Part shown: positions 11,445 to 48,286 of the stretch, piece by piece
Layout of the letters: every line of letters starts with the position of its first letter
Numbering within the stretch: position 1 is the stretch's first letter
Assembly (NCBI GenBank): GCA_017454625.1
Contig: JAFTCP010000035.1
Coordinates: 1-48,400, forward strand
Source of the DNA: Synergistaceae bacterium
GTDB lineage: Bacteria > Synergistota > Synergistia > Synergistales > Aminobacteriaceae
DNA length: 48,400 nt
Direction: 5' to 3'
The notes under the pieces: model-generated
Database searches by the model: none
What the model saw: the letters and a program-made list of their open reading frames with translations, nothing else
Told to the model about the DNA's origin: nothing
Position numbers and translations under genes: made by a program

Positions 11445-12362
11445 GTGAATAACTTAACGCCCGAATCAACGCTAATATTTTTCCTGCGTACTCTCTTCAG
11501 TTCAGCTGTGGATTACGCCGTGTATATTCCTGACTCCGGAGACGTGATAATTCTCACGAAGGGGCAATTAGTTTTTCTCGTTGAGCGCGGCTGTGCTGAT
11601 ACGATGATAAAAACTCTTCCTCAGCTGGTCAAACGCAACATCGTTACGCCTCTTAATCCCGAAGAGATTGAATATCCTCAAGAAGTCCGAGCAATTTACG
11701 TTGAGACTGCCGGGACATTCATAAACACTCTGGAAGCCGCTTTGTCGCCCGATGAGCCGCAATATCCTGAATGGTGGAATGCTCCCGTTCCCTTTGCGAT
11801 TTCATCACGAGGAGTTTTACGCTTAAACGAGACAGCAAGAAAAATGTTCGGTCAAGGCCTTGAAAAATTAAACGCTCAGGAGCTGCCGGAACGCGATGAA
11901 TTTATCGTGAGACTTGAAGGGACAAACGGAGCGAGATTTATAGCATTCAGGAAGTTAAGGCCGGGAATTTTCACGATTGATGACTGCACGGATGACTTGA
12001 ACGACGCTCAGGATATAACTTGGTGGGCGGCTGTCGGTCAAGCGTGGGTACGCGAGATTGAAGCTCAGGGGGGAAAATGGCAGAGACTTGATGAGCCTCC
12101 GGAGGGAAAAACTAAGGGATTTCGAGCGTGTGAGTGGAACGGAGAGTTACAGGGTTATCTTGATGTTGAGATGCCGACAAGAAATAAAGCTCCGGAGAAA
12201 AAGAAGGTTGAAGCTCCTGAACCTCAGAATGAGAATGACAACGCGGAAATTCAGGAGCCTATCCAGCCTGAGCCCATGCCTGAGCTTATTCATGATGACG
12301 TTATCGACAGAATAGGCCCGCAAGCAATGGGATTATTAGCCGCCGGAAATCAATATATCTAG
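11445..12362 (+). CDS. Hypothetical protein, possible PAS-like core
   Basis: 305 residues from a GTG start three bases after the ftsY stop, so probably translated by coupling. No signal peptide or membrane segment. The middle (about 110-215) has the feel of a PAS-type sensor fold (FAISSRGVLRLNETARKMFG, later a Phe-Thr-Ile-Asp-Asp-Cys strand), but I cannot name a family. The C-terminal 70 residues are rich in Glu, Pro and Asn and look disordered, echoing the acidic protein two genes upstream. The three genes probably form one operon. Its TAG stop shares the four bases CTAG with the stop of the converging gene, and no terminator hairpin fits between them. Confidence 0.7.
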   Translation: MNNLTPESTLIFFLRTLFSSAVDYAVYIPDSGDVIILTKGQLVFLVERGCADTMIKTLPQLVKRNIVTPLNPEEIEYPQEVRAIYVETAGTFINTLEAALSPDEPQYPEWWNAPVPFAISSRGVLRLNETARKMFGQGLEKLNAQELPERDEFIVRLEGTNGARFIAFRKLRPGIFTIDDCTDDLNDAQDITWWAAVGQAWVREIEAQGGKWQRLDEPPEGKTKGFRACEWNGELQGYLDVEMPTRNKAPEKKKVEAPEPQNENDNAEIQEPIQPEPMPELIHDDVIDRIGPQAMGLLAAGNQYI

Positions 12363-13480
12363 AGAGTAATTCTTATCCTGTTAATGTTGTCAGAATATTC
12401 ATACTCAATTTTTCCCTTAGCAATCCTCTTCAACACGATTACGCCTAAATGAGCTTCATCATCGTCCTCGTTGTCCTCTTCAAGCTCAAAAGGATTAAAC
12501 TTTTTCCCGGAACTCGTTAAATTAATTTCGGTTAATGAGTCAGCTTCGGAGTATGATATTTCCAGGCCAATTTTCACAGGCTCATGATTATTCTCATAAC
12601 ATCCGGCGAGAACTTCATATATTAATTCCTCACAGCAAAGTTCAAGCCTATTTGTCAACTTAGAACTCAGGCCGTATTTTTCCCCGAAGTTGTGAATTCC
12701 TCCCTGCATATTTAACAGGTCAAAATCCCGTCGGGTAATCTCATAGACAAAAAACTTCAGCTTCCTGATAAATGCAATCGTCTTTTCACGTTTGGGAGCG
12801 TCAAAAATTTCCGTCGGAGTTCCCTGCTCGTAAATCCCCCTGTCGGCTAAAAATAACACGCGGCTTGCAACTTCACGGGCAAAATTCATCTCATGAGTTA
12901 CGATTAACATTGTCATATCCTGTTTGGCAAGCATTCGTATCATCGCGAGGACTTCCCCGACCATCGTAGGATCTAATGCGCTCGTAGGCTCATCGAATAA
13001 TAAAACTTTCGGTTTCATCATGAGACATCTGCAAATCGCAATCCTCTGCTGCTGACCTCCTGACAAATTCGCGGGCATTGAGTGAACTTTTGACGTTAAG
13101 CCGACTTTCGAGAGCCAATCCATAGCTTGAGCTTCAGCGTCGGATTTACTCATTCCCAAGAGCTTGACGGGAGCAACGCATAAATTTTCGAGAACGTTCA
13201 TATGTGAGAATAAATAAAACTTCTGATAGACCATCCCCATTTTGCGACGGATTTTGTTAACGTCAGCATTAGAAGCCGTAATCTCCTCGCCGTCAATAAA
13301 GATTTTCCCGGAGTCCGGCCTCTCTAAAAGCTCAAGTGAACGGAGAAATACACTTTTGCCGCATCCAGAGCCGCCGATTATCGCAATTCGTTCGCCTTCG
13401 TTGACATCAAGATTAACATTTTCCAGAACATGAAGACTTCCGAAGGACTTGCATAAATTTTCAACTTTGATTAAGCTCAT
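12359..13480 (-). CDS. Amino-acid ABC transporter ATPase fused to an RsbW-like domain
   Basis: 373 residues. 1-240 are a GlnQ/HisP-type ATPase with every motif: Walker A GGSGCGKS, Q-loop VYQKFYLF, signature LSGGQQQR, Walker B LLFDEP and H-loop THE. About 245-373 are an extra domain resembling the HATPase_c_2 (RsbW/SpoIIAB) fold: LSSKLTNRLELCCEELIYEV and, near the end, HLGVIVLKRIAKGKIEYEYS. The latter aligns with GLGIYMVKKSMDDIVYEYKD in the SpoIIE-type protein of the same operon. The N-box Asn is replaced by Glu and the G1/G2 glycines are mostly lost, so kinase activity is doubtful. It energises the permease upstream; the extra domain could tie transport to the switch proteins. AGGAGG precedes the ATG, and the start overlaps a micro-ORF as ATGA. 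Confidence 0.9.
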   Translation of the reverse strand: MSLIKVENLCKSFGSLHVLENVNLDVNEGERIAIIGGSGCGKSVFLRSLELLERPDSGKIFIDGEEITASNADVNKIRRKMGMVYQKFYLFSHMNVLENLCVAPVKLLGMSKSDAEAQAMDWLSKVGLTSKVHSMPANLSGGQQQRIAICRCLMMKPKVLLFDEPTSALDPTMVGEVLAMIRMLAKQDMTMLIVTHEMNFAREVASRVLFLADRGIYEQGTPTEIFDAPKREKTIAFIRKLKFFVYEITRRDFDLLNMQGGIHNFGEKYGLSSKLTNRLELCCEELIYEVLAGCYENNHEPVKIGLEISYSEADSLTEINLTSSGKKFNPFELEEDNEDDDEAHLGVIVLKRIAKGKIEYEYSDNINRIRITL

Positions 13481-13566
13481 GAACTCTTCCTCCTGAATGC
13501 AAAAACCTCACGTAAACTTTTATCCAGCGAAAAAACGACACGAGATTTATAGTTGATTATATTCAT
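13477..13566 (-). CDS. Micro-ORF D, 29 residues, diverged permease-tail copy
   Basis: ATG at 13566, stop TGA at 13477-13479. Its start overlaps the stop of micro-ORF C as ATGA and its stop overlaps the ATG of the ATPase gene as ATGA. GGAGA lies eight bases before the ATG. The part RVVFSLDKSLRE still lines up with EIFTLTDYSLLR of copy C, so it is the most diverged of the tail copies. It also contains the ribosome-binding site of the ATPase gene. Whether the peptide is made or the frame only couples translation is open. Confidence 0.4.
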   Translation of the reverse strand: MNIINYKSRVVFSLDKSLREVFAFRRKSS

Positions 13567-13652
13567 GTAATTTCTCCATTTCTCAGCAGCGAATAATCAG
13601 TCAACGTGAAAATCTCATAAATGACATATGCAGGTTCTAGATACAAGCTCAT
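13563..13652 (-). CDS. Micro-ORF C, 29 residues, permease-tail copy
   Basis: ATG at 13652, TGA at 13563-13565, with ATGA overlaps at both ends. AAAGGAAG stands about eight bases before the ATG. The peptide begins MSLYLEPAYVIYEIFTLTDY and clearly copies the permease C-terminus (IYLGLAYIIHGIFALSDY). Unit length is 86 bases. The frame is intact despite considerable base divergence. Confidence 0.45.
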   Translation of the reverse strand: MSLYLEPAYVIYEIFTLTDYSLLRNGEIT

Positions 13653-13729
13653 GCCGTTACTTCCTTTCGTGTCGGGACATAATCACATAACGCGAAAATC
13701 TCAGGAATGACGCAAAAGATGAAGTTCAT
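13649..13729 (-). CDS. Micro-ORF B, 26 residues, permease-tail copy
   Basis: ATG at 13729 overlaps the permease stop as ATGA; TGA at 13649-13651 overlaps the next micro-ORF. GGGAAG precedes the ATG. The peptide contains IPEIFALCDYVPTRKE, against HGIFALSDYLQTRREE at the permease end. Unit length is 77 bases. Confidence 0.45.
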   Translation of the reverse strand: MNFIFCVIPEIFALCDYVPTRKEVTA

Positions 13730-14397
13730 GCCGCTTCTTCCCTTCTCGTCTGGAGATAATCACTCAATGCGAAAATCCCATGAATAATATATGCTAATCC
13801 CAGATAAATCAACATTCCGATTATTATCGTAATCATCGGCTGCATCGTTCGTGAAGCTATGTTGTTGATTACCCGCGTTAAATCCGTGATTGAGACATAA
13901 CCGACAACGCTTGTCCATTGGATTAAGTTTATCGTCGTCGATTGGTAGACGGGCTTAGCAATTCTGATTACCTGCGGAAGAGTTACGAGCCTGAAGGCCT
14001 GCCACGCCGAAAATCCCAGAGTTCTGGCCGCCTCAACTTGTCCGTAATCCGTCGCGTCAATCGAAGCCCTGAGTAATTCTGCGATATGAGCGGCGACATT
14101 CAGCGAGAAAGTTATCACGGCGATTGTCTCAGCTTCAAGGCTTGAACGCGCAAAAATTCCGTAATACATCAGCATTAACAGCATCAAGACGGGCGAACCC
14201 CGAAGGATTAAGATATAGACGCTCGATATGAACTTGAAGACTTTCACACGCGACATTCTCAGCATGCAGATTAAAGCTCCTAAGATTGTGCCGATAATCA
14301 ACGAAAAACAGGAAATTCTGAGTGTTGCAAGAAGCCCGTTGAAGATGACTTTATACGAGCCGCCCTGAATTAATATTCGATAAAGTATTTCGCTCAT
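13726..14397 (-). CDS. Amino-acid ABC transporter permease (HisM/GlnP type)
   Basis: 223 residues, typical length, with about five membrane helices. The cytoplasmic EAA loop that contacts the ATPase is clear: EAARTLGFSAWQAFRLVTLP. This is the only permease in the operon, so it probably acts as a homodimer, as in several polar amino-acid transporters. It would move the ligand delivered by one or more of the three binding proteins encoded upstream. It begins seven bases after the stop of the last binding protein gene and ends in ATGA with the first micro-ORF. The last 28 codons are repeated three times downstream. Confidence 0.93.
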   Translation of the reverse strand: MSEILYRILIQGGSYKVIFNGLLATLRISCFSLIIGTILGALICMLRMSRVKVFKFISSVYILILRGSPVLMLLMLMYYGIFARSSLEAETIAVITFSLNVAAHIAELLRASIDATDYGQVEAARTLGFSAWQAFRLVTLPQVIRIAKPVYQSTTINLIQWTSVVGYVSITDLTRVINNIASRTMQPMITIIIGMLIYLGLAYIIHGIFALSDYLQTRREEAA

Positions 14398-14404
14398 GAT
14401 TAGA

Positions 14405-15265
14405 TTATTCCGTGTCGCTCAAAGTTACGTGAAAGAATTTATCCCAGTTCAGATATGGCATTGACAAAATTACCTCGTCAGGAACATCCGGCTGAACGCT
14501 TAAACTTTTATTAATCTCGTACCAGAAAACTATATCAGCACGTCCAGACACAAGCGCGGCGGTTCGTGCTCCAGCATTAACGTTGATTATGGAAATATTC
14601 ACGTGAAGTCTCCTGCCGATTTCAGCCAGAACAGCAACACTGTATCCTGCCGGAAGTCCGTCCTCTCCGATAAAGTCAACCGGAGGCAAGTCCCCTGTAA
14701 CAGCAACTTTCACGGTCGGGGCATCTTTGAAATGCTCAAACTTTATGCGCTTTTCCTTGTTGAGCTGCTTTCTGTTAATCCCGTAAATTTCGTCGTAGCT
14801 CTCGTCCTCAGGAATATTTTTCACGTATTTGTAAGCAAGCCCGATTAAGCTGTAATCATTCAACATTGAGCTTAGGGCCTCATTCCATTTGTCGCGTAAA
14901 GCCGCGTTCTCCTTCATGAAGCCGAAGCATAATCCCATTTTCCCTGAGCTTGATATACAGCATCGTGAATAATTGTAATTAATCTTGAGCAGGTAATCAG
15001 CGACGAAATCAGGCAAAATCATCTCGTCAATCTCGCCGCTGTTCAGAGCTAATTGCATCTGCGTCAACGTGTCGTAAAATCTTGCCTTGCTTGATGAGTG
15101 ATCCCCTCCGAGAATTACCCAGCCGCCTGTTGACCAGGAATTTTTCATCATCATAAAAAACTCATCAGGTGTCGTCTTAAGCCGCGAGAGAAAACCGACG
15201 TAATCATCAGCAAACGCTGAACTCGTAACAAGCAAAATTGCTAATACCAACAAAAATTTTTTCAT
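14405..15265 (-). CDS. Circularly permuted solute-binding protein 3
   Basis: 286 residues from the ATG at 15265 (AGGA upstream; signal peptide MKKFLLVLAILLVTSSAFA). An in-frame extension to 15322 lacks a ribosome site. It belongs to the SBP_bac_3 (type II periplasmic binding) family, but the halves are swapped. The block with FYDTLTQMQLALNSGEIDEM and LCFGFMKENAALRDKWNEAL, normally C-terminal, comes first. The normally N-terminal block VKVAVTGDLPPVDFIGEDG, then GYSVAVLAEIGRRL and SGRADIVFWY, comes last. It carries an insertion (about 165-180) not found in its two paralogues. Periplasmic, presumably amino-acid-like ligand. Confidence 0.85.
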   Translation of the reverse strand: MKKFLLVLAILLVTSSAFADDYVGFLSRLKTTPDEFFMMMKNSWSTGGWVILGGDHSSSKARFYDTLTQMQLALNSGEIDEMILPDFVADYLLKINYNYSRCCISSSGKMGLCFGFMKENAALRDKWNEALSSMLNDYSLIGLAYKYVKNIPEDESYDEIYGINRKQLNKEKRIKFEHFKDAPTVKVAVTGDLPPVDFIGEDGLPAGYSVAVLAEIGRRLHVNISIINVNAGARTAALVSGRADIVFWYEINKSLSVQPDVPDEVILSMPYLNWDKFFHVTLSDTE

Positions 15266-15299
15266 AAAATATTTCCTCGTCCAAAAATTTTTAATCATC

Positions 15300-15337
15300 A
15301 TTAACAGCTCCCAGAAATCCATATTAAGAATGTTGCT
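15300..15337. repeat. Decayed copy of the 3' end of binding protein gene 2
   Basis: CCAGAAATC followed by a run close to ATTAAGAAT here matches CCAGAAATCACGATTAAAAAT at 15413-15432, the tail of the upstream gene, about 102 bases away. In translation both carry a DFW motif. It explains most of the 117-base gap. An 18-codon frame (15324-15380) crosses this gap but has nothing to recommend it. Confidence 0.55.
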
Positions 15338-15382
15338 GTTTCTCTGATGAATGAGCTTCTATATTACTCTGAAATATCATAA

Positions 15383-16255
15383 TCAATCCTTAATATACAA
15401 ATTCCAGAAATCACGATTAAAAATATTCCAGCCTCCTGATGAAGCCTCTTTAGTCTTACGTTTCAGGTGAATGAACTTGTCCCACTCGTAATAAGGCTCT
15501 GACAAAATTATTCCGTCGGGAACGTCTGATTGAACCCGTGAAGATTTATTGATTTCGTACCAGAAAACTACATCAACACGTCCTGAAGCAAGCGCGGCAT
15601 TCCTGGCTCCGGCCTCGATATTTACGATCTGAATATTCCTGTTGATACGTGCGCCAATCTCAGCGAGAACGGCTGTGTTAAATCCTGCTGGAGTTCCGTC
15701 GGCGGCGATTAAGTCAATCGGGGGCAAGTCTCCAGTAACAGCAACACGAATTGTCGGAGCATCATCGATTTCCGCGAATTTTACGGGTTCAGGGTCATCA
15801 ACTCTTTGTGAAGCTATGTAAATTCCTTCGAGAACTGAAAGAGTCCAATCATCACGCAAACTTCTCAAAGCCTCGTTGAATTTTCCCCTCAACTCCTCAC
15901 TGTCAGCACGAAATCCGAAAGCTAAGCCCGTTCCTTTTGAGTGCAGGACTAAAGCGGGAGTGTATTCGTTCGACGCTTTCATGACGTAATCAGCTGTGAA
16001 GTCAGGCAGAACCATTTGATTAATCTCGCGGGAGTTCAAGGCCATCTGCATTGACGTGAGAGTGTCATAGAATTTCACGATGACTTCGAGAATTTCATTG
16101 TGAGGCGCAAAAGTTTTTCGCCAAGTTTCAGCAAATTGTTCTTCGGTCGAGTTCAACTTTGAGAGTATTCCGAGACGGATAACCTGTTTTTCGAGTGAAC
16201 CCGCCGAAGATGAGATTAACGTTAATATAATCAACGCATAAAGAAATTTTCGCAT
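15383..16255 (-). CDS. Circularly permuted solute-binding protein 2
   Basis: 290 residues. The ATG at 16255 is preferred over a TTG three bases earlier because AGGAGGG stands seven bases before it. Signal peptide at residues 1-20. Same permuted order as its two paralogues: first KFYDTLTSMQMALNSREINQ with LAFGFRADSEELRGKFNEAL, then IRVAVTGDLPPIDLIAADG, AGFNTAVLAEIGARI and LSEPYYEWDKFIHL. A 17-residue tail (about 274-290) goes beyond the paralogues. It is the shortest and cleanest example of the permuted form. Periplasmic; ligand unknown. Confidence 0.85.
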   Translation of the reverse strand: MRKFLYALIILTLISSSAGSLEKQVIRLGILSKLNSTEEQFAETWRKTFAPHNEILEVIVKFYDTLTSMQMALNSREINQMVLPDFTADYVMKASNEYTPALVLHSKGTGLAFGFRADSEELRGKFNEALRSLRDDWTLSVLEGIYIASQRVDDPEPVKFAEIDDAPTIRVAVTGDLPPIDLIAADGTPAGFNTAVLAEIGARINRNIQIVNIEAGARNAALASGRVDVVFWYEINKSSRVQSDVPDGIILSEPYYEWDKFIHLKRKTKEASSGGWNIFNRDFWNLYIKD

Positions 16256-16303
16256 CAATTATCCCTCCTTTTATTGTGCCAATTCATAAGAGCTGCAACA
16301 AAC

Positions 16304-16339
16304 TATATTAGACAAGTTAAATATAAATCCATGTCCATA
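16304..16339. repeat. Decayed copy of the 3' end of binding protein gene 1
   Basis: AAATCCATGTCCA here matches AAATCCGTGTCCC in the gene tail 63 bases away (16388), with flanking similarity on both sides. It fills part of the gap between the two binding protein genes. Confidence 0.5.
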
Positions 16340-16365
16340 ATATGAAAATTACAGCCGCAAAAAAA

Positions 16366-17253
16366 TTATCTTGAACGGGTGATGATTAAATCCGTGTCCC
16401 ACTCGTAATAAGGCACTGAGAGAATTACTCCGGGCGCTGCATCACGAACAACATTTTTGAGCTTGCTACTGGGGATTTTGCTTGTCTCGGTGTTGCGGTA
16501 CCAGAAAATTACATCAGCTCGTCCAGACGCAAGAGCCGCAGAACGTCCGCCGGAATCAACGCTTATTAATCTAACATTTTTCTTTATCCTTCGGCCAATT
16601 TCAGAGAGTATCGCAGTGTTATAGCCCGTAGGTTTTCCGTCAGCAGCAATATAATCAATCGGCGGCAAATCTCCCGTTACAGCAACTTTGATCGTCTCGG
16701 CATCTTTGAAACTCGTAAATTTCTCGGCCTTAGGCTCCCCGTTAAGCTCAGTGATAAATTTTTTCCCAAGCCTTGAAAGTGTCCCGTCCTTTCTCATCGC
16801 TGAGATTGCATCGTTAAATTCCTTCTGAAGTTTCGTGTTGCCCTGCTTAAATCCGAATGAAATCGTCGAAGGCATCATGTTTAACGAGAACGAAATATCA
16901 TAATTCGCGTTGTTCGTGATTAAATACATTCCGACCGGCTCAGGTAAAACTATCTCGTCAATTTTTCGCGAGCGTAAAGCCATCTGCATTGACAATAACG
17001 AATCATAGAAGTGTACAACTCGGCGATTTTTCACGAGTTCCATTATGAAACCTTCAAGCCTGTCTTCTTCTGCCCAGTTACTTTCATCCGCAGGAATTAA
17101 CGGAGCTACAGCCTTTCGCAAGTCGTCAAGTCCCTCCTGAAATTCGCCTTCAGTCGTGCCGAGATAAGTCAATATTCCGCTGTCAACAAAATCTTTAGCA
17201 TAAACGGAACTCGCGATTAACACTAAAATTAGGGCAAGTAAAAACTTTTTCAT
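16366..17253 (-). CDS. Circularly permuted solute-binding protein 1
   Basis: 295 residues from the ATG at 17253 (GGAGG upstream; signal peptide MKKFLLALILVLIASSVYA). Residues about 79-168 are the normally C-terminal part of an SBP_bac_3 domain: HFYDSLLSMQMALRSRKIDE, ISFGFKQGNTKLQKEFNDAI, then RKDGTLSRLGKKF. Residues about 186-295 are the normally N-terminal part: IKVAVTGDLPPIDYIAADGK, GYNTAILSEIGRR, ALASGRADVIFWY and VPYYEWDTDLIITR. Standard family members have the reverse order, as does the domain at the C-terminus of the symporter at 46010-48286. First binding protein gene after the receptor phosphatase gene. Confidence 0.87.
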   Translation of the reverse strand: MKKFLLALILVLIASSVYAKDFVDSGILTYLGTTEGEFQEGLDDLRKAVAPLIPADESNWAEEDRLEGFIMELVKNRRVVHFYDSLLSMQMALRSRKIDEIVLPEPVGMYLITNNANYDISFSLNMMPSTISFGFKQGNTKLQKEFNDAISAMRKDGTLSRLGKKFITELNGEPKAEKFTSFKDAETIKVAVTGDLPPIDYIAADGKPTGYNTAILSEIGRRIKKNVRLISVDSGGRSAALASGRADVIFWYRNTETSKIPSSKLKNVVRDAAPGVILSVPYYEWDTDLIITRSR

Positions 17254-17361: not shown

Positions 17362-19779
17362 TTAAAGTTCCTTCTTGATCGTCAGAATATTTTTCCCATC
17401 CTTATACTCGTAAACAATATCGTCCATGCTCTTTTTGACCATGTAAATCCCCAATCCTCCGATTTGTCTTTCTTCAGCCGGGAGCGTAATATCCGGGTCT
17501 TCCTTCGCTAATGGGTCATAAGGAACGCCATTATCAATAAACGTAATCAAAACGGCTAAAGGCTCTTCCTGAAGTTCAACTCTCACGGTTGCCGGGCCGG
17601 TCTCAGGATTATAGGCATAATGAGCAATATTCACGAACAATTCTTCAACTGCAACGTCAATTTGCATCTGGATTTTCGGTGAGCAGTCATGTGCTTCAAG
17701 CTGTTCATCGACGAACGAAATTACTTTTTCAAGATTATTCACATCAGCTTCAATTGTTAATTCTTTCATGAAATTTTTACCTCCAAAATATCTTAAGCAA
17801 AGCATTGTAATATCATCAAATTGGGGAGCGTCTCCGGTGAACGCGTCAACATCTTGTTTCATTGACGATAAAATCTCTTCAGCCGAGAAATTCTTTGTGT
17901 CGTCAAGAGCTTTAAGCATCCTGTCAGTCCCGTATAATTCCTCGTTAGAGTTCGTAGCCTCAGCAACTCCGTCCGTGTAAAGATAAAGATTATCGCCTGG
18001 ATTGAGCGTAAATTCATTCTGGCGGAACTTTAAGCCTTCCATTGTTGCAACTGCCGGGCTGGGTTTACTTTTTATGAGTTCGTAATTTCCTCCGACGTGT
18101 CGAATTGCCGGGTATTCATGGCCTGCGTTTGAGGCTGTAACTTTTCCCGTCGAGATTTCCAAAATTCCGAGCCAGACGGTTACGAACAAATCGGCTTCGT
18201 TTCCTTCGCATAATTGATTATTAACGTCGTGAAGAATTTCCGAAGGTGAGCCGCCAATTTGAGAACGAGTTTTTATTAACGTCTTAGCAATCACCATGAA
18301 CAACGCCGCCGGAACTCCCTTACCCGAAACGTCAGCCATAACCAAAGCTAAATGGTCATCGTCAATCATGAAGAAGTCGTAAAAATCTCCCCCAACTTCT
18401 TTTGCCGGTGTCATTGTAGCGTAAATGTCAAATTCTTTTCTATCAGGAAAAGGAGGGAAAATTCGCGGGAGCATGTCAGCTTGAATTTGTGTAGCAACGT
18501 TGAGTTCCGCACCAATTCTCTCTTTCTCGGCTGTAACAGCGGCTAAGTTCTTCACGTACTCTTTCAGGGAAGCCGCCATGTTGTTGAAGTTCTGTGCTAA
18601 GTCTCCGATTTCGTCATCACTTCGGATTTCGGCCCGGTAATCTAAATTTCCTCCGCTGATTTTCTCGACATCATGACCGAGTTCAATTATCGGGTTCGTT
18701 AAACGCGTTGAGAATGTCCGTGAGACGAACGCGACTATCATAATAATCATCAGGAAGACGACGAGGAATAAAATTATCGTGATGATAATATTACGATTAA
18801 CTCTGTTTACCGGCGATAAAATTACGTCTCTAGGAATTGTGATGCAGAACTTCCAGCCCGTACTTTTTATCGGAGTGTAAGCGTAATAAGTCATGTTATC
18901 GGCTAGAGATATTCCCGTTTTTCCAGAGAGAATTTCACCAGCGACCGACGGACGAAGAACATCACTTTCATTTAACTCTTGGCCTGAAGGATTGATAATT
19001 TTTCCCGCTTCGTCAACAAGAAACGCAAAGGCCTCTTCTCCCAAATCAATATTAACGACAGCTTTATGCAAATCCGAGATTAATATATCCATACCGACGG
19101 CTCCGGCAAATTTATTATTCGCGTCATAGAACGGAGCTAAACAAGTTATCATTAAGCCGCGATTATAAGCGTCGTTGTAAATGTCAGTGAAATATGTTTT
19201 CCCAGTTTCTTTTGCGAGTTTATACCATTCGGATTTTGAGTAATCGTAATAAACATCGTTTCCGCCATTGTCGCTGATTTCCGATTGGTCATCATAAGCA
19301 ATCATAAAGCCGCTTTCTGTGCCAAAATATATTGTCGTGATTACGCCCTTGTTTGACTGCATAACCGGAGCCCAGACCTGTTCAACATTTCCAAGAAGGC
19401 TTGACTCGTCTTTTACAGCATCTTTGTTGACTGTTTCGTCGCGATAACCTTTCTGAAGAACAAGAACTCCTGCGTTTTCTTTCGTAGGGGGAAAGACTTC
19501 ACGGCTCACGTAACCCGATGGATTTTTATAAATCTCATGGATATAGCCCGCGAAGTTTTCAATGTAATTCGTGAATTTCCCAAGTTCGGAATCCGCAAGC
19601 TCGGCTTTATTGGTCGTAATGTTGTATAAATTCTGCTCCATCTGGTGAATTAACGCGCTCTCGCTGTTGCCCCTGATGAGGAACATGCTGATTAATCCGA
19701 CCGTTGAAGTTATGATTAATGCCGCAATCGATACAGCAAGAACCAGACTTTGAACTTTCTTACGAATTGGCCGCCTCAT
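17362..19779 (-). CDS. Receptor phosphatase: dCache-HAMP-SpoIIE with C-terminal RsbW-like kinase domain
   Basis: 805 residues. TM1 about 13-35; a periplasmic double-Cache sensor about 40-325 (WYKLAKETGKTYFTDIYND, GAVGMDILISDL); TM2 about 330-353; HAMP to about 410; PP2C-type SpoIIE phosphatase about 430-650 (GGDFYDFFMIDDDHLALVMA, DVSGKGVPAALFM, LYTDGVAEA, DDITML); HATPase_c_2 domain about 670-805 (AVEELFVNIAHYAY, DNGVPYDP, GGLGIYMVKKSMDD). This last copy keeps the N-box Asn and the glycine box. One protein therefore holds both activities of a partner switch: it could dephosphorylate and rephosphorylate the STAS protein of the same operon according to a periplasmic ligand. AGGAGG before the ATG; the start overlaps the preceding stop as TAATG. 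Confidence 0.94.
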   Translation of the reverse strand: MRRPIRKKVQSLVLAVSIAALIITSTVGLISMFLIRGNSESALIHQMEQNLYNITTNKAELADSELGKFTNYIENFAGYIHEIYKNPSGYVSREVFPPTKENAGVLVLQKGYRDETVNKDAVKDESSLLGNVEQVWAPVMQSNKGVITTIYFGTESGFMIAYDDQSEISDNGGNDVYYDYSKSEWYKLAKETGKTYFTDIYNDAYNRGLMITCLAPFYDANNKFAGAVGMDILISDLHKAVVNIDLGEEAFAFLVDEAGKIINPSGQELNESDVLRPSVAGEILSGKTGISLADNMTYYAYTPIKSTGWKFCITIPRDVILSPVNRVNRNIIITIILFLVVFLMIIMIVAFVSRTFSTRLTNPIIELGHDVEKISGGNLDYRAEIRSDDEIGDLAQNFNNMAASLKEYVKNLAAVTAEKERIGAELNVATQIQADMLPRIFPPFPDRKEFDIYATMTPAKEVGGDFYDFFMIDDDHLALVMADVSGKGVPAALFMVIAKTLIKTRSQIGGSPSEILHDVNNQLCEGNEADLFVTVWLGILEISTGKVTASNAGHEYPAIRHVGGNYELIKSKPSPAVATMEGLKFRQNEFTLNPGDNLYLYTDGVAEATNSNEELYGTDRMLKALDDTKNFSAEEILSSMKQDVDAFTGDAPQFDDITMLCLRYFGGKNFMKELTIEADVNNLEKVISFVDEQLEAHDCSPKIQMQIDVAVEELFVNIAHYAYNPETGPATVRVELQEEPLAVLITFIDNGVPYDPLAKEDPDITLPAEERQIGGLGIYMVKKSMDDIVYEYKDGKNILTIKKEL

Positions 19780-26741: not shown

Positions 26742-29700
26742 TTAGTCTATTACAGGTTCAGCCTCAACAATTGAATTTATCCTGTAACGATTTCCCTTGT
26801 TGTTAATCCTGAAAACTTCCCAGTAACCGCCGGTTGATGCATCACTCGGAGGAGTAAATTTTTCCCGGAAATCCCCGTTGAAGTATAAGCTCACTTTCGG
26901 TTTTGCCCCGTTCCAGTCGACACTTTCGCCGCCGTCCCAGACAACATAAAACTTATACTCTGTCGAAGCAAAGTTAGTGAAGCGAATGTATTTACTCTTG
27001 CCGCCGTCCTTGTAGAAACATACTCCAGCTTGTCTTCCGTTCGGTGCATATTGAGGAGTGTTCGATGAGTTTACGCGTTGGATTGAGCCGCCGGAATATT
27101 TTATCAGCAAGTTCGGTGCTAAGAATGTCTTTGAGCTGCATTCAAAGTAGACGGTGTATATGCATTTCGCCGCTCTGTAGAGAGTTCTGTAAATATTTCT
27201 CGTCTCGTTCGGCGGAACAGTAACGGCGAACTTGTGATAATCATAGCCGGTTTTTCCGACGTAAATCGTGTAATTCCCGGAGTTAATGTTGCTGAAAGTG
27301 TATGTTCCTCCTGAATATGTCGGATATGCTGAAGTCCTCGTGTAGTTGTTGACCGCGCTGATTGATACTCCGCTCACTGAATTATCGTTCTCGTCGCTCA
27401 AGTGAAGCGTAATATTCCCCGTTCCTGTTTTCACTAACTCAGCATCAAGCCGAACTGTCTTATTTGCGGGGATATAAACTCTTTCTTGATAGGCTCTGTA
27501 GCTTCCGAATGTCGGTGAAACTATAACGTTGTAATTCCCTGCGTCAGCCTTAAGCTCATAATTCCCGTTTTGGTCGATAATTACGCTCTCTACCGTATTA
27601 TTTGCATCATCCCTCAGCGCAACCGTCGCGCCTCCCGTGATTGTTCCGCTGGTGTCCCAATCGGTAATTTTTCCCCTGAGAGTTCCTTTTGCTTCCGAGA
27701 TTTCGACTTTATCAAACGCCTTCTTAATCGTCAAAATTTTTGTGTCAGATAATCCCATTTGCAAAGCCGCTCTGATTACATTTCTTCTGACAGTGTGAAA
27801 ATTTGAGGTGTTATCAAGCCCGAAGCTAAGCGACTTATACCAGACCCAGCCGACTTCATTCCATGTTAAAGCCTGAGAAGTTGACCGGCCAATTTTGGAA
27901 GCTCCATCCTCATGCATTAAGTAAGCCGCGTGAGTTACAAGTCTGCAGTAAGTGTGGCATCCGTTGCCGTCATTCCCGTAATATTGAGGCGCGACAGTTC
28001 TATAATGCTCGTAAAGTTCATCAATCGTCGTAATCCCTGAAAGTCCGTAACTGCTCCGTGCTCCAGCCGAGAGGGATTTTACAGTAACATCTTCCCTTGC
28101 ATCTCTCAGGCATTGTGTGTTGTCAATGAAATATGTAAATCCCGTGTCCGGGTCATTGTCATAGTCAGCTCTCCAGCCATGCCGCCAGTCCTTATCTCTC
28201 AAGCACCCGAAAATGTCAGCATAGCCGTCGTTGATTGCTCCCGTTGCGTTTTGATAGCTTATTCCGCCCGTGATGTAATAAAGAACTGCATGGCCCGTTT
28301 CGTGAGTGAGAGTGTCAAGTCCGATTGCTCGCGTTTTGTCGTATAAAGTCGTGTCGCTTATATCTCCGACGCTGATTGTTTTATTTGAAGAGTTCCAGCA
28401 GGCATTATCAGAATATCCCGAACGGTGAGTGATGAGCTTGATTGCCATTCCTTTATCGTCGAGGGAATTTCGGTTGAACGTGTCTTTCCACCATCGAAGT
28501 ACAAGCCTCATGTTCGCGAACGCCGCGATTTGGTGCCTGTCAGTCCATGAGTTTTTATATCCCCATTCGCTTGTCGGAATATTGCTGTCGCTCTCGCTTT
28601 GTGAGTAAACTATGACTTCCGGCGAGCCGCTGTCCCGCAAATACTTCGTGTTATTCCTGCCCTTAACTGTAACGGGAAAACTTCTTGTATGACCGAGTTC
28701 GTCAGTGCCGTAATTATAAGTTGTCCACGTACAGACATCATCAATCGCCTCAATAACATTCAAGTCATAATCGCCGACAATAACAGTTTGATTAATGTCG
28801 TTCCCTGTAACTTTTACGACGAACGCGGGTTCAGGATTGGCCTCATATTCACCGAGCGAGTAAATAATTTTCTTTGTCTCCGATGAAATCACTTCGAGGC
28901 CGGTTGTTCCGGGATAATTCGCGAGCGCGGCACGTTCAGCTTCAGCTTCGGTGTGTGAAAAATAAAGTCCATTGGGGAAGGCCACATCAAGGCTTTCTGT
29001 AGCGATGAAACTTGAGCTTAAAAAGTCCGTTTCTCCCTCAGAGTTCGCCGAAATCATTAACGTTCTGCCGAAAACTTCTGCGCTCTCTCTGGAGTTCGAG
29101 TAAATCTGCCTGAATGAATATTGCGCGCCGTAATCATCTCTTGTAACGTTAAGGGGCTCCGTTTCGTTGTAGGGGTCAGTTATTCCTAATGCCTCGTGAA
29201 TTTCATATGCCGCGTCTAAAGCGTCGTCGGCGTTCTTAACTTCCAAGTTTGAAAATTTCCCGTCAATATGCCTGATTTGTTCCTCGTTGTCGTCGTAAAC
29301 GATGTTGAAATTATCATTGCTCTCATTCATCGTGATAATCTCGTCGGCAATAACAGGATATTCATCCGCAGAGGCTTTCACGTCGTCGATTTTTCGTGTT
29401 CGTGCGTGAATAACTTTTAGCGTGAAAGTTTTGCTTGCTGATTTTCCGGCGTTCGTTATCGTCGCGGTCAAGATAACTTCTGCGTCGTTTCCTGTTGGTC
29501 TGGTAACTTGGCCTGTGCTTGAGATTAATCCGGAATTGCTGGCCCATGTGATATTTATTCCTTCGGATTGTGCCGGAAGCGTTAAGTTTCTCGTAACGTA
29601 ATCCGGACCGTCGCCAGGCTGATAAATTATCGCGATTAATGCCGCCGCAATGTCAGCTTCATCCTGGTCCGGGTCATCATTCGCCCATTGAGCATAAAGC

Positions 29701-30032
29701 GTTAAATCCCTGCTGATTTTCTCGCCGTCAAGGCCGAACATGAAAATCTGCGTGAACTCGTTATTGTCCTTGAACCAGCCCGCGAAGATTGAACTTGCTT
29801 TTGTCGGTTCGTCAGGAGCTTCAATTGTCGTATCAGCGCTGACGGTCATACTTGCAACTTCAGATCCTCCGTTTGAGTCAAATTTTACGGTGTAAGTCGT
29901 GCCCTGATTATGATTGTTATTATTGTCATTGCTCCCGCCGCTGCCTCCGCCTCCGCCGCATCCTGATAAAGCAATCACGAAGAATAATGCGAAGAAAAGA
30001 GACATGAAAGCGAAAAATTTTCTGCCACTCAT
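26742..30032 (-). CDS. M4 (thermolysin-type) metalloprotease lipoprotein
   Basis: 1096 residues. Lipoprotein signal with lipobox IALSGC and a Gly/Asn-rich linker. In order: an InlB/Flg_new repeat (about 48-115, KFDSNGG to YAQW), an atrophied bacterial Ig-like domain (about 125-210), an FTP-type propeptide (about 250-400), an M4 catalytic domain (about 450-790), two carboxypeptidase-regulatory/CnaB-like beta domains and a C-terminal beta domain. The zinc motif HETGH is at 577-581. The third ligand region reads GAINDGYADIFG where family members have Glu (NE); here Asp 602. The late histidine helix THAAYLMHED is present. Surface-anchored protein degradation is likely, with activity uncertain because of the Glu-to-Asp change. 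Own terminator. Confidence 0.88.
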   Translation of the reverse strand: MSGRKFFAFMSLFFALFFVIALSGCGGGGGSGGSNDNNNNHNQGTTYTVKFDSNGGSEVASMTVSADTTIEAPDEPTKASSIFAGWFKDNNEFTQIFMFGLDGEKISRDLTLYAQWANDDPDQDEADIAAALIAIIYQPGDGPDYVTRNLTLPAQSEGINITWASNSGLISSTGQVTRPTGNDAEVILTATITNAGKSASKTFTLKVIHARTRKIDDVKASADEYPVIADEIITMNESNDNFNIVYDDNEEQIRHIDGKFSNLEVKNADDALDAAYEIHEALGITDPYNETEPLNVTRDDYGAQYSFRQIYSNSRESAEVFGRTLMISANSEGETDFLSSSFIATESLDVAFPNGLYFSHTEAEAERAALANYPGTTGLEVISSETKKIIYSLGEYEANPEPAFVVKVTGNDINQTVIVGDYDLNVIEAIDDVCTWTTYNYGTDELGHTRSFPVTVKGRNNTKYLRDSGSPEVIVYSQSESDSNIPTSEWGYKNSWTDRHQIAAFANMRLVLRWWKDTFNRNSLDDKGMAIKLITHRSGYSDNACWNSSNKTISVGDISDTTLYDKTRAIGLDTLTHETGHAVLYYITGGISYQNATGAINDGYADIFGCLRDKDWRHGWRADYDNDPDTGFTYFIDNTQCLRDAREDVTVKSLSAGARSSYGLSGITTIDELYEHYRTVAPQYYGNDGNGCHTYCRLVTHAAYLMHEDGASKIGRSTSQALTWNEVGWVWYKSLSFGLDNTSNFHTVRRNVIRAALQMGLSDTKILTIKKAFDKVEISEAKGTLRGKITDWDTSGTITGGATVALRDDANNTVESVIIDQNGNYELKADAGNYNVIVSPTFGSYRAYQERVYIPANKTVRLDAELVKTGTGNITLHLSDENDNSVSGVSISAVNNYTRTSAYPTYSGGTYTFSNINSGNYTIYVGKTGYDYHKFAVTVPPNETRNIYRTLYRAAKCIYTVYFECSSKTFLAPNLLIKYSGGSIQRVNSSNTPQYAPNGRQAGVCFYKDGGKSKYIRFTNFASTEYKFYVVWDGGESVDWNGAKPKVSLYFNGDFREKFTPPSDASTGGYWEVFRINNKGNRYRINSIVEAEPVID

Positions 30033-46009: not shown

Positions 46010-48286
46010 ATGGAAACGATTATTAGAATTAACAAAGTCATAAATAACTTCGTCTGGGGAATACCCGGCCTGACATTATTAGTTGGTACGGGCGTTTACT
46101 TGACACTTTTACTGAGATTGCCACAGTTACGATATTTTCTTTCGGCAATGGCAGAGGTCTTCAGTTTCCGGAAAGAAAGCGAGAATGATAAATCCGTTTC
46201 ATCTTTTGCTGCAATGGCTACGGCTATAGCCGCGACTGTTGGAACTGGCAATGTAGCAGGTGTAGCGACCGCACTTCACCTTGCCGGACCGGGTGCGCTG
46301 ATCTGGATGCTAATCTCTGCTCTCTTCGGAATGTGTACTAAATTCGCTGAAGTAACATTAGCGGTTCATTACAGGCAGAAGGACGCACATGATGATTGGC
46401 GCGGAGGCACAATGTACATTCTTGAAAACGGCTTATGTGAACGCGGCGGCATATGGAAGCCAATAGGGAAGTTGCTCGCGTTTTTGTTCTCACTCTTCAC
46501 GATACTTGCTGTTTTAGGTTCTGGCGCGGCAACTGAGGCAAACTCTGTAGCTGAAGCACTCTTCTTAGGCTGGAACGTGGAGCATCTTTATAGCGGTCTC
46601 GTAATGGCTGTTTTAGTGGGGCTGGTCATTATAGGCGGGCTATCCAGTCTTTCACGAGTTACGGTGCTCATTGTCCCTTTCATGTCCGTATTCTATATTG
46701 TGAGTTCCATCATTATACTTGTAAGTCATGCGCCGCAAATTCCTGCTGTTATCGCTGAATCATTCCGAATGGCTTTCAGCAACCCCGATCCCTCAGTCAT
46801 TACGGCAGGGCTTGCAGGCTGGGGCGTTAAAGAGGCAGTTCAAAGGGGCATTGCTCGCGGAGTATTTTCCAATGAGGCCGGTATGGGTTCCGCTCCTATG
46901 GCACATGTTACGGCAGATGTTGCGCATTCAGTACAGCAAGGGTTTTACGGAATATTCGAGGTCTTCTTGGACACAATTATTATCTGCACAATGACAGCAC
47001 TTATTCTTCTTGTTACTGGAACGCTGACCGACACACCAGAACTGACTGGCGCACAACTTGCACTCCGGGCGTTTGAGTTCGCATTAGGACCTATCGGCAA
47101 ATACATTTTTTCAATCGGCTTTCTGCTATTCACATTCACAACAACTCTGGGCTGGTATTGGTACGCTGAGACGGCAATAACGTATATGTTTGGTGTTAGG
47201 GCCAAGAGTATCATGAAACTTTTGATGATTACGATGATTTTATTTGGTGCGGCTGGAGCTCAGTTCTTCGGTTTGGCGGGCAACGAGTTTCTAAATAACT
47301 TATGGGACATATCGGACACTCTTAACGGCTTAATGGCACTCCCGAACCTAATTGCATTACTGCTTCTCTCCTTTACGCTCAGAAAAATTGTGAACGATTA
47401 CGACGCGAAAATTAAACGAGCTCAAGGAATTACGATTACGCGAGCTATGACGAGGAAAAAGCTGATGCCAAAGGAGATGCAAAAATTGTTGCTCGTGTCA
47501 GTGTGCGCAGCGTTACTTCCCATAGGAATGGTTTACTTTGGCGGCGGCCCGCGAGATAGAGTTCACGAAAGAGATTTTTCTTTGCAAAGGGTGCTTGAAG
47601 CCGGACATATAGTTTTGGGTGTTGATACAGCATTTCCGCCCATGAGCTTTGTGAATGATAAAGGTGAAATAGTTGGCTTTGATATAGATCTTCTACGTGA
47701 AGTCAGTAACAGATTGGGGATTGAGCTTGTAATACGGCCTATCAATTGGGACAGCAAAGAAAGTGAACTGCAGGACGGAACCATAGACTGCATAGGGAGT
47801 ATGTCGGTTGTTCATGAAGCGGTCGAGGCAATGAGTTTGTCGGAGTCGTATGTGAAGGAAGACCTTATCTTTGTTATCCGCGACGACAGCGGAGTAAAGT
47901 GGTTACGCGACCTCAAAGGCAAAACGATTGGCGTGCGGGCAGGTTCAACGACGCAGGAAGCACTTAATGCGATTGATATTATCGATGATATTACGATCGT
48001 TCCGCTTGATAATAACATGTTGGTTCTTCAGCAGTTGAAGGAGGGAAAACTTGATGCTGCTCTCGTGGATTCTCTTGCAGCATGTTATTTCATATTCTCA
48101 AGCGACGAACGATATTTTGTTCTTTCCGATAATCTCGGTGAGGAAGAATTAGCAATAGGATTCAGGAAGAACGACCGGAAACTTAGGGACAGAGTGCAGG
48201 AGGTAATCAGCGAAATGAAGGCCGACAATACTTTAGGCAAAATATCCCCAAAATGGTTTGGAAGCGATATTACAGTCGTAAAGTAG
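46010..48286 (+). CDS. Alanine/glycine:cation symporter fused to a periplasmic binding domain
   Basis: 758 residues. About 1-500 are an AGCS-family sodium-coupled amino acid symporter with about eleven helices: TAIAATVGTGNVAGVATAL, TKFAEVTLAVHYR and GVFSNEAGMGSAPMAH are family signatures. About 525-758 are a complete SBP_bac_3 domain in normal order: LGVDTAFPPMSFVNDKGEIV, GFDIDLLREVSNRLGIE, LKGKTIGVRAGSTTQ, then IGFRKNDRKLRDRV and KADNTLGKISPKWFG. The binding domain follows the last helix directly, so it would stand on the periplasmic face and could feed or gate the symporter. AGGAGATG lies upstream. A membrane-protein gene follows after 23 bases. Confidence 0.92.
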   Translation: METIIRINKVINNFVWGIPGLTLLVGTGVYLTLLLRLPQLRYFLSAMAEVFSFRKESENDKSVSSFAAMATAIAATVGTGNVAGVATALHLAGPGALIWMLISALFGMCTKFAEVTLAVHYRQKDAHDDWRGGTMYILENGLCERGGIWKPIGKLLAFLFSLFTILAVLGSGAATEANSVAEALFLGWNVEHLYSGLVMAVLVGLVIIGGLSSLSRVTVLIVPFMSVFYIVSSIIILVSHAPQIPAVIAESFRMAFSNPDPSVITAGLAGWGVKEAVQRGIARGVFSNEAGMGSAPMAHVTADVAHSVQQGFYGIFEVFLDTIIICTMTALILLVTGTLTDTPELTGAQLALRAFEFALGPIGKYIFSIGFLLFTFTTTLGWYWYAETAITYMFGVRAKSIMKLLMITMILFGAAGAQFFGLAGNEFLNNLWDISDTLNGLMALPNLIALLLLSFTLRKIVNDYDAKIKRAQGITITRAMTRKKLMPKEMQKLLLVSVCAALLPIGMVYFGGGPRDRVHERDFSLQRVLEAGHIVLGVDTAFPPMSFVNDKGEIVGFDIDLLREVSNRLGIELVIRPINWDSKESELQDGTIDCIGSMSVVHEAVEAMSLSESYVKEDLIFVIRDDSGVKWLRDLKGKTIGVRAGSTTQEALNAIDIIDDITIVPLDNNMLVLQQLKEGKLDAALVDSLAACYFIFSSDERYFVLSDNLGEEELAIGFRKNDRKLRDRVQEVISEMKADNTLGKISPKWFGSDITVVK

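Follow-up and report, generated by a model that had tools for sequence, protein, structure and literature searches.

Three neighbouring genes of a rumen Synergistaceae almost certainly encode circularly permuted type II (family 3) periplasmic binding proteins. They lie in a stretch of 48,400 nucleotides, referred to as the window (Table 1). A normal family-3 binding protein runs in the order lobe1a - lobe2 - lobe1b. We denote as A its N-terminal half, which comprises the opening half of lobe 1 together with the first hinge strand; the remainder of the domain, i.e., lobe 2, the second hinge strand, and the closing helices of lobe 1, is termed B. Sequence comparison reveals both halves of an SBP_bac_3 (type II) domain in the trio, yet the normal order is lost, with B preceding A in all three proteins.

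Table 1 Genes of the window and further permuted genes of the window genome.
Feature	Position	Strand	Basis or remark
Permuted SBP_bac_3 protein 1, P0006 (295 aa)	16366..17253	-	Pfam, half-domain HMMs
Permuted SBP_bac_3 protein 2, P0005 (290 aa)	15383..16255	-	AlphaFold2 pLDDT 91.8, pTM 0.86
Permuted SBP_bac_3 protein 3, P0004 (286 aa)	14405..15265	-	Pfam, HMM swap test
Amino-acid-type ABC permease (BPD_transp_1), presumed partner of the trio	13726..14397	-	Pfam, kept gene order
ABC ATPase with C-terminal HATPase_c_2-like domain, presumed partner of the trio	12359..13480	-	Pfam, conserved
dCache-HAMP-SpoIIE phosphatase-HATPase_c_2 protein, upstream neighbour	17362..19779	-	Pfam; conserved in many relatives
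Na+/alanine symporter (AGCS) with native-order SBP_bac_3 domain, internal reference	46010..48286	+	Pfam, half-domain HMMs
Permuted protein	C75:94-918		Window genome
Permuted protein	C75:2008-2811		Window genome; adjoins its own permease and ATPase
Permuted protein	C96:3675-4472		Window genome

Order of the two halves

Pfam SBP_bac_3 matches each trio protein in two stretches of reversed order, the best of which lies near the C-terminus and covers profile positions 1-63 of 132. Separate HMMs built here for A and B likewise place B before A in 3/3 trio proteins, and read A then B in GlnH, HisJ, ArgT, ArtI, and ArtJ of E. coli as well as in the symporter-fused domain of the window. The exchange of halves claimed by an earlier, sequence-only reading is therefore confirmed by Pfam and by the half-domain HMMs, and its motifs are found where it had placed them: the N-terminal half holds FYDSL/FYDTL, GFK/GFR, and the N-A-x5-D-G-T-L helix, the C-terminal half VAVTGDLPP, ALASGRADVIFWY, and PYYEWD. 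Each protein carries one signal peptide, as claimed, of the Sec type. The native-order family member that it had named as internal reference is real, with the qualification that this SBP domain is fused to a Na+/alanine symporter. Comparable long frames (about 760-770 aa) containing this domain were observed in three relatives (G059, G070, G086).

ORF limits of the trio were counted from RBS-proximal ATGs. Each ORF has its own ribosome-binding site, an AGGAGG preceding the ATG at 17253 in the case of P0006, which further contains an insert of ~35 aa in its N-terminal lobe-2 part. A frameshift or assembly artefact was rejected, since the BA order was observed in 51 genomes and in 225 distinct ORFs, a recurrence that also places it far above chance.

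Swapping the halves restores a full-length match

Swap tests were performed against a reference profile of 53 native-order domains. Exchanging the halves raised the score in 205/214 permuted chains, with the median best-domain score rising from 37.8 to 66.0 bits and profile coverage from 0.41 to 0.97, whereas none of the 53 native controls gained and their score dropped from 263 to 135 bits. The swap hence restores one full-length match in permuted chains, while native controls lose theirs. For individual trio proteins, the two HMM matches of P0004 (30.9 and 26.3 bits) merged into a single one of 62.0 bits, and those of P0005 (30.1 and 24.9 bits) gave 57.5 bits. P0006 did not merge into one HMM match and stayed split upon swapping, because of its insert. 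Profile-profile comparison of the window family as written yielded two half matches with E-values of 5.9e-19 and 3.5e-18 (columns 155-256 on 2-98, and 21-137 on 107-222), and upon swapping a single match spanning 220 columns (E 3.1e-37). With only E. coli proteins as reference, the E-value changed from 9.8e-14 to 7.9e-27. A native control displayed the mirror behaviour. The anticipated better score of a halves-swapped profile search was consequently obtained for P0004, P0005, and the window family.

Predicted fold of the permuted chain

Mature P0005 was modelled by AlphaFold2 together with 120 relatives, with the scores given in Table 1. Lobe 2 of the model consists of strand-helix-strand-helix-strand-helix, followed by a long strand (79-97) and two helices, and the second part is a strand-helix series closing with a long strand (230-247). 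Secondary structure and Foldseek matches to type II folds thus point to a bilobed fold with two long hinge strands, which stand in permuted order. A search of the PDB with Foldseek, an order-dependent method, returned only type II binding-protein folds among the 50 matches listed, namely binding proteins, LysR-type regulator domains, and HisG, with TM scores of 0.30-0.46 by query length and at most 0.53 by target length, and rmsd values of 6.6-13 A. No native-order superposition was found among these 50 matches, and such low order-dependent scores are expected of a family-3 sequence in permuted order. The proposed type II fold is in line with these data, and no single native-order SBP domain spans the chain according to the two-stretch Pfam matches and the swap test. 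Circular permutation itself, the core of the sequence-only reading, is backed by HMM and profile-profile swap scores and by the order of secondary structure elements in the model.

According to the model, the chain would start at the first lobe-2 strand, run through lobe 2, and cross the hinge once before building the closing helices of lobe 1, from where a lobe-1 loop (about 18 residues in most relatives) would lead into the normally N-terminal half, and the chain would end with the other hinge strand. Fold and cleft would be kept, and the two termini would come to lie next to the hinge, on its lobe-2 side. They had been expected at the hinge; they are predicted to lie beside it, and the break is corrected to a position flanking the first hinge strand towards lobe 2. 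As the sequence-only reading suggested, such a topology may alter closure or contact with the permease.

One might instead regard the proteins as two separate half-domains, remnants of a tandem pair, with halves of different chains pairing in a domain-swapped dimer or string. Each half indeed matches the profile separately, and the trio forms a tandem gene array in which, on the DNA, the B of one gene follows the A of another in native order. We nevertheless give this explanation very little credence: AlphaFold2 returned one confident monomeric chain (pTM 0.86), solo permuted genes exist away from any other copy (on contig C96 of the window genome), and the B-to-A loop is nearly constant, with 16-20 residues in 187/225 solo chains and 17.8 +/- 0.9 residues (n = 62) in eleven fused arrays described below, fitting a connection within one domain.

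Genomic context of the trio

The trio resembles components of an ABC importer in having signal peptides and permease and ATPase genes alongside. Gene order around it is conserved, with the SpoIIE-type phosphatase upstream and, downstream, the permease and the ATPase with its HATPase-like tail. The HATPase_c_2 match on this ATPase reaches 26.1 bits, slightly below the Pfam cut-off of 27.4; the domain is of the anti-sigma-factor type, and the ATPase gene is conserved along with the permuted trio. One to five permuted genes are present per cluster, differing among genomes (L037, L039, L045, L050, and other relatives), and this varying copy number suggests that copies were repeatedly duplicated or lost. 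At 13559-13785, between the genes for the permease and the ATPase, lie three direct repeats of 64 nt in decayed form (64-80% alike), the last of which extends over the 3' end of the permease gene. Elsewhere in the window (26742-30032), a 1096-aa protein combines thermolysin-type peptidase domains with Ig-like and carboxypeptidase-regulatory repeats.

Permuted proteins in 51 Synergistota genomes

In addition to the trio, the window genome (G000, 2.47 Mb) encodes three permuted proteins elsewhere, six in total. Full-length permuted matches were identified in 51/188 Synergistota genomes, including all 43 genomes of the window's genus, four g11 genomes, and one genome each from g5, g8, and g10, genera of the same family; in one genome of another family, the permuted protein is fused to a permease (L166). 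Relatives are named Synergistaceae, Synergistales, or Fretibacterium and derive mostly from ruminant guts. The fetched loci contain 225 distinct ORFs in BA and 53 in AB order, counts that depend on the queries used and are not frequencies. Rather than an event confined to the three genes, the permutation is old and common to the family. A scan of genome contigs with the window type yielded 80 listed matches, all of them Synergistota. Five of the six matches checked among plasmid relatives are in native order, the B half alone being found in the sixth, and the viral contigs searched contained no relative of the permuted proteins. Some gut Clostridia may carry permuted family-3 proteins.

A single origin suffices

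A tree of 70 re-ordered domains was calculated from a 221-column alignment of the re-ordered halves. All 27 native rows fall on one side of one branch (90/88), and the best tree requires one change between permuted and native order, as do 85% of bootstrap trees. In all permuted groups, the cut site is the same, between the first hinge strand and the first lobe-2 strand. Given the single change in the tree and the shared cut site, one origin within Synergistota suffices, with moderate support. Repeated, independent origins of the permuted order within Synergistota appear unlikely on the same grounds, although long branches part the window type, canonical permuted relatives, and arrays, and more than one change is required in 15% of bootstrap trees.

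With respect to the route, the best PDB match of the canonical permuted paralogue P0001 is the SBD1-SBD2 tandem of GlnPQ (E 5e-45, residues 23-264 on 99-333), in an unbroken alignment that connects lobe 2 of SBD1 with lobe 1 of SBD2. A match across this junction is to be expected if the outer halves were lost after a tandem duplication. The sequence-only reading had suggested this very route, which fits both the GlnPQ match and the permuted arrays and is plausible as the origin of the permuted form. Both the canonical permuted amino-acid binders and the (BA)n-permease arrays probably trace back to the same single event.

Permuted arrays fused to a permease

Thirteen long ORFs consist of (BA)n fused to an amino-acid permease (n = 2, 2, 3, 4, 6 in four cases, 7, 8 in three cases, and 12), where n is a minimum for some arrays with ORFs cut by contig or fetch ends. 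They are located in relatives at L209:3848-13603, L159, L161, L164, L165, L163, and L160, and further at L162, L170, L210, L174, L167, and L168. The longest, at L209, holds twelve units in one open frame of 3252 codons. All thirteen begin with a B half and finish with an A half, to which the permease is joined. In contrast to the near-constant B-to-A loop, A-to-B junctions of eleven arrays measure 12.8 +/- 5.0 residues (n = 51) and are rich in Ser, Pro, Ala, and Lys, compared with 2-7 residues in native proteins. A two-unit array (L168) was modelled with pLDDT 92.5 and pTM 0.65. Foldseek comparison with native single binding proteins resulted in TMt of about 0.32-0.41 and rmsd of 11-20 A at 17-30% identity; owing to these low TMt and high rmsd values, A1 and B2 form no native domain in the model. 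Linker lengths and the Foldseek result for the two-unit model suggest that array units most likely fold as BA.

Pfam marks full AB stretches inside the arrays, as would be seen if their units were native AB domains with stray halves at the ends, only the solo proteins being permuted. We consider this quite improbable, since A-to-B junctions are long and variable compared with those of native proteins, 13/13 arrays open with B and close with A ahead of the permease, and the A1-B2 stretch of the two-unit model does not superpose on native binding proteins; a native-order reading of the arrays was rejected on linker lengths and Foldseek.

Among sampled array units, the equivalent of the ligand-binding Arg (see below) is kept in 74% and that of Asp in 50%. 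Judged from these residues, the units within a chain probably have different ligands, or binding has been lost in part. The sampled units in first position join in a clade of their own.

Binding site and putative function

Canonical permuted relatives keep the equivalents of HisJ Arg77 and Asp161, 100% each, the two residues by which alpha-amino acids are held. In the window type, Pro occupies the Asp161 position in 96%, and the commonest residues at the Arg77 position are V, A, I, or S, Arg not being among the common ones. The window type has accordingly lost both residues of the amino-acid-specific family-3 site. Based on this loss and on the conserved gene order, the trio may import a solute that is not an alpha-amino acid held in the conventional way, or may sense together with the phosphatase. 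Most likely, it would bind a small solute and pass it to the neighbouring permease and ATPase, its putative partners.

Discussion

The trio shares its two halves, lobes, and hinge strands with SBP_bac_3 (PF00497; GlnH, HisJ, ArtJ). Native members are in A-B order, whereas the trio has the order swapped and the Arg/Asp signature lost; canonical permuted members retain this ligand signature in common with PF00497 amino-acid binders. Circular permutation of binding proteins is known mostly from biosensor engineering. A literature search, with most subscription journals outside its range, found no natural permuted type II (family-3) binding protein and no report of permuted arrays of binding domains. 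A permuted type I protein, TpMglB-2 of Treponema pallidum, has been described by crystal structure as 'Type Ic / Cluster Bc' (PMC4990184). It has a type I (sugar) fold, whereas the trio is type II in sequence and predicted fold and hence not Type Ic. The cut differs as well: in TpMglB-2, the first three strands of one lobe are moved and a fourth hinge crossing is added.

Like the arrays, GlnPQ (PDB 6h30) strings family-3 binding domains together and fuses them to an amino-acid permease, as a native tandem SBD1-SBD2 (PMC8025302); it has two domains in native order, whereas the Synergistota forms are permuted and comprise 1 to 12 units. EvgS and BvgS, Foldseek matches of the array model, also carry tandem Venus-flytrap sensor domains of the same fold in one chain, but in native order and with a kinase part, unlike the permuted, permease-fused arrays. 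With up to twelve domains on one permease chain, the permuted arrays far exceed two-domain GlnPQ, and Pfam annotation places their domain borders in the other register.

A natural permutation that has been widely retained in a very common fold for amino-acid binding offers a ready set of working permutants, with native relatives in the same genomes. It permits a direct test of which hinge connection is required for closure and for docking to the permease. We see about even chances that one ancient permutation gave rise to a separate class of family-3 binders in which hinge-side chain ends allow arrays, with the trio maybe a phosphatase-linked sensing branch. If so, this class would be the type II counterpart of 'Type Ic' in Synergistota, with up to twelve permuted domains per permease chain providing many partly diversified capture sites per importer, and the trio, with its remodelled pocket, may represent a branch that senses ligands in connection with the adjacent SpoIIE phosphatase.
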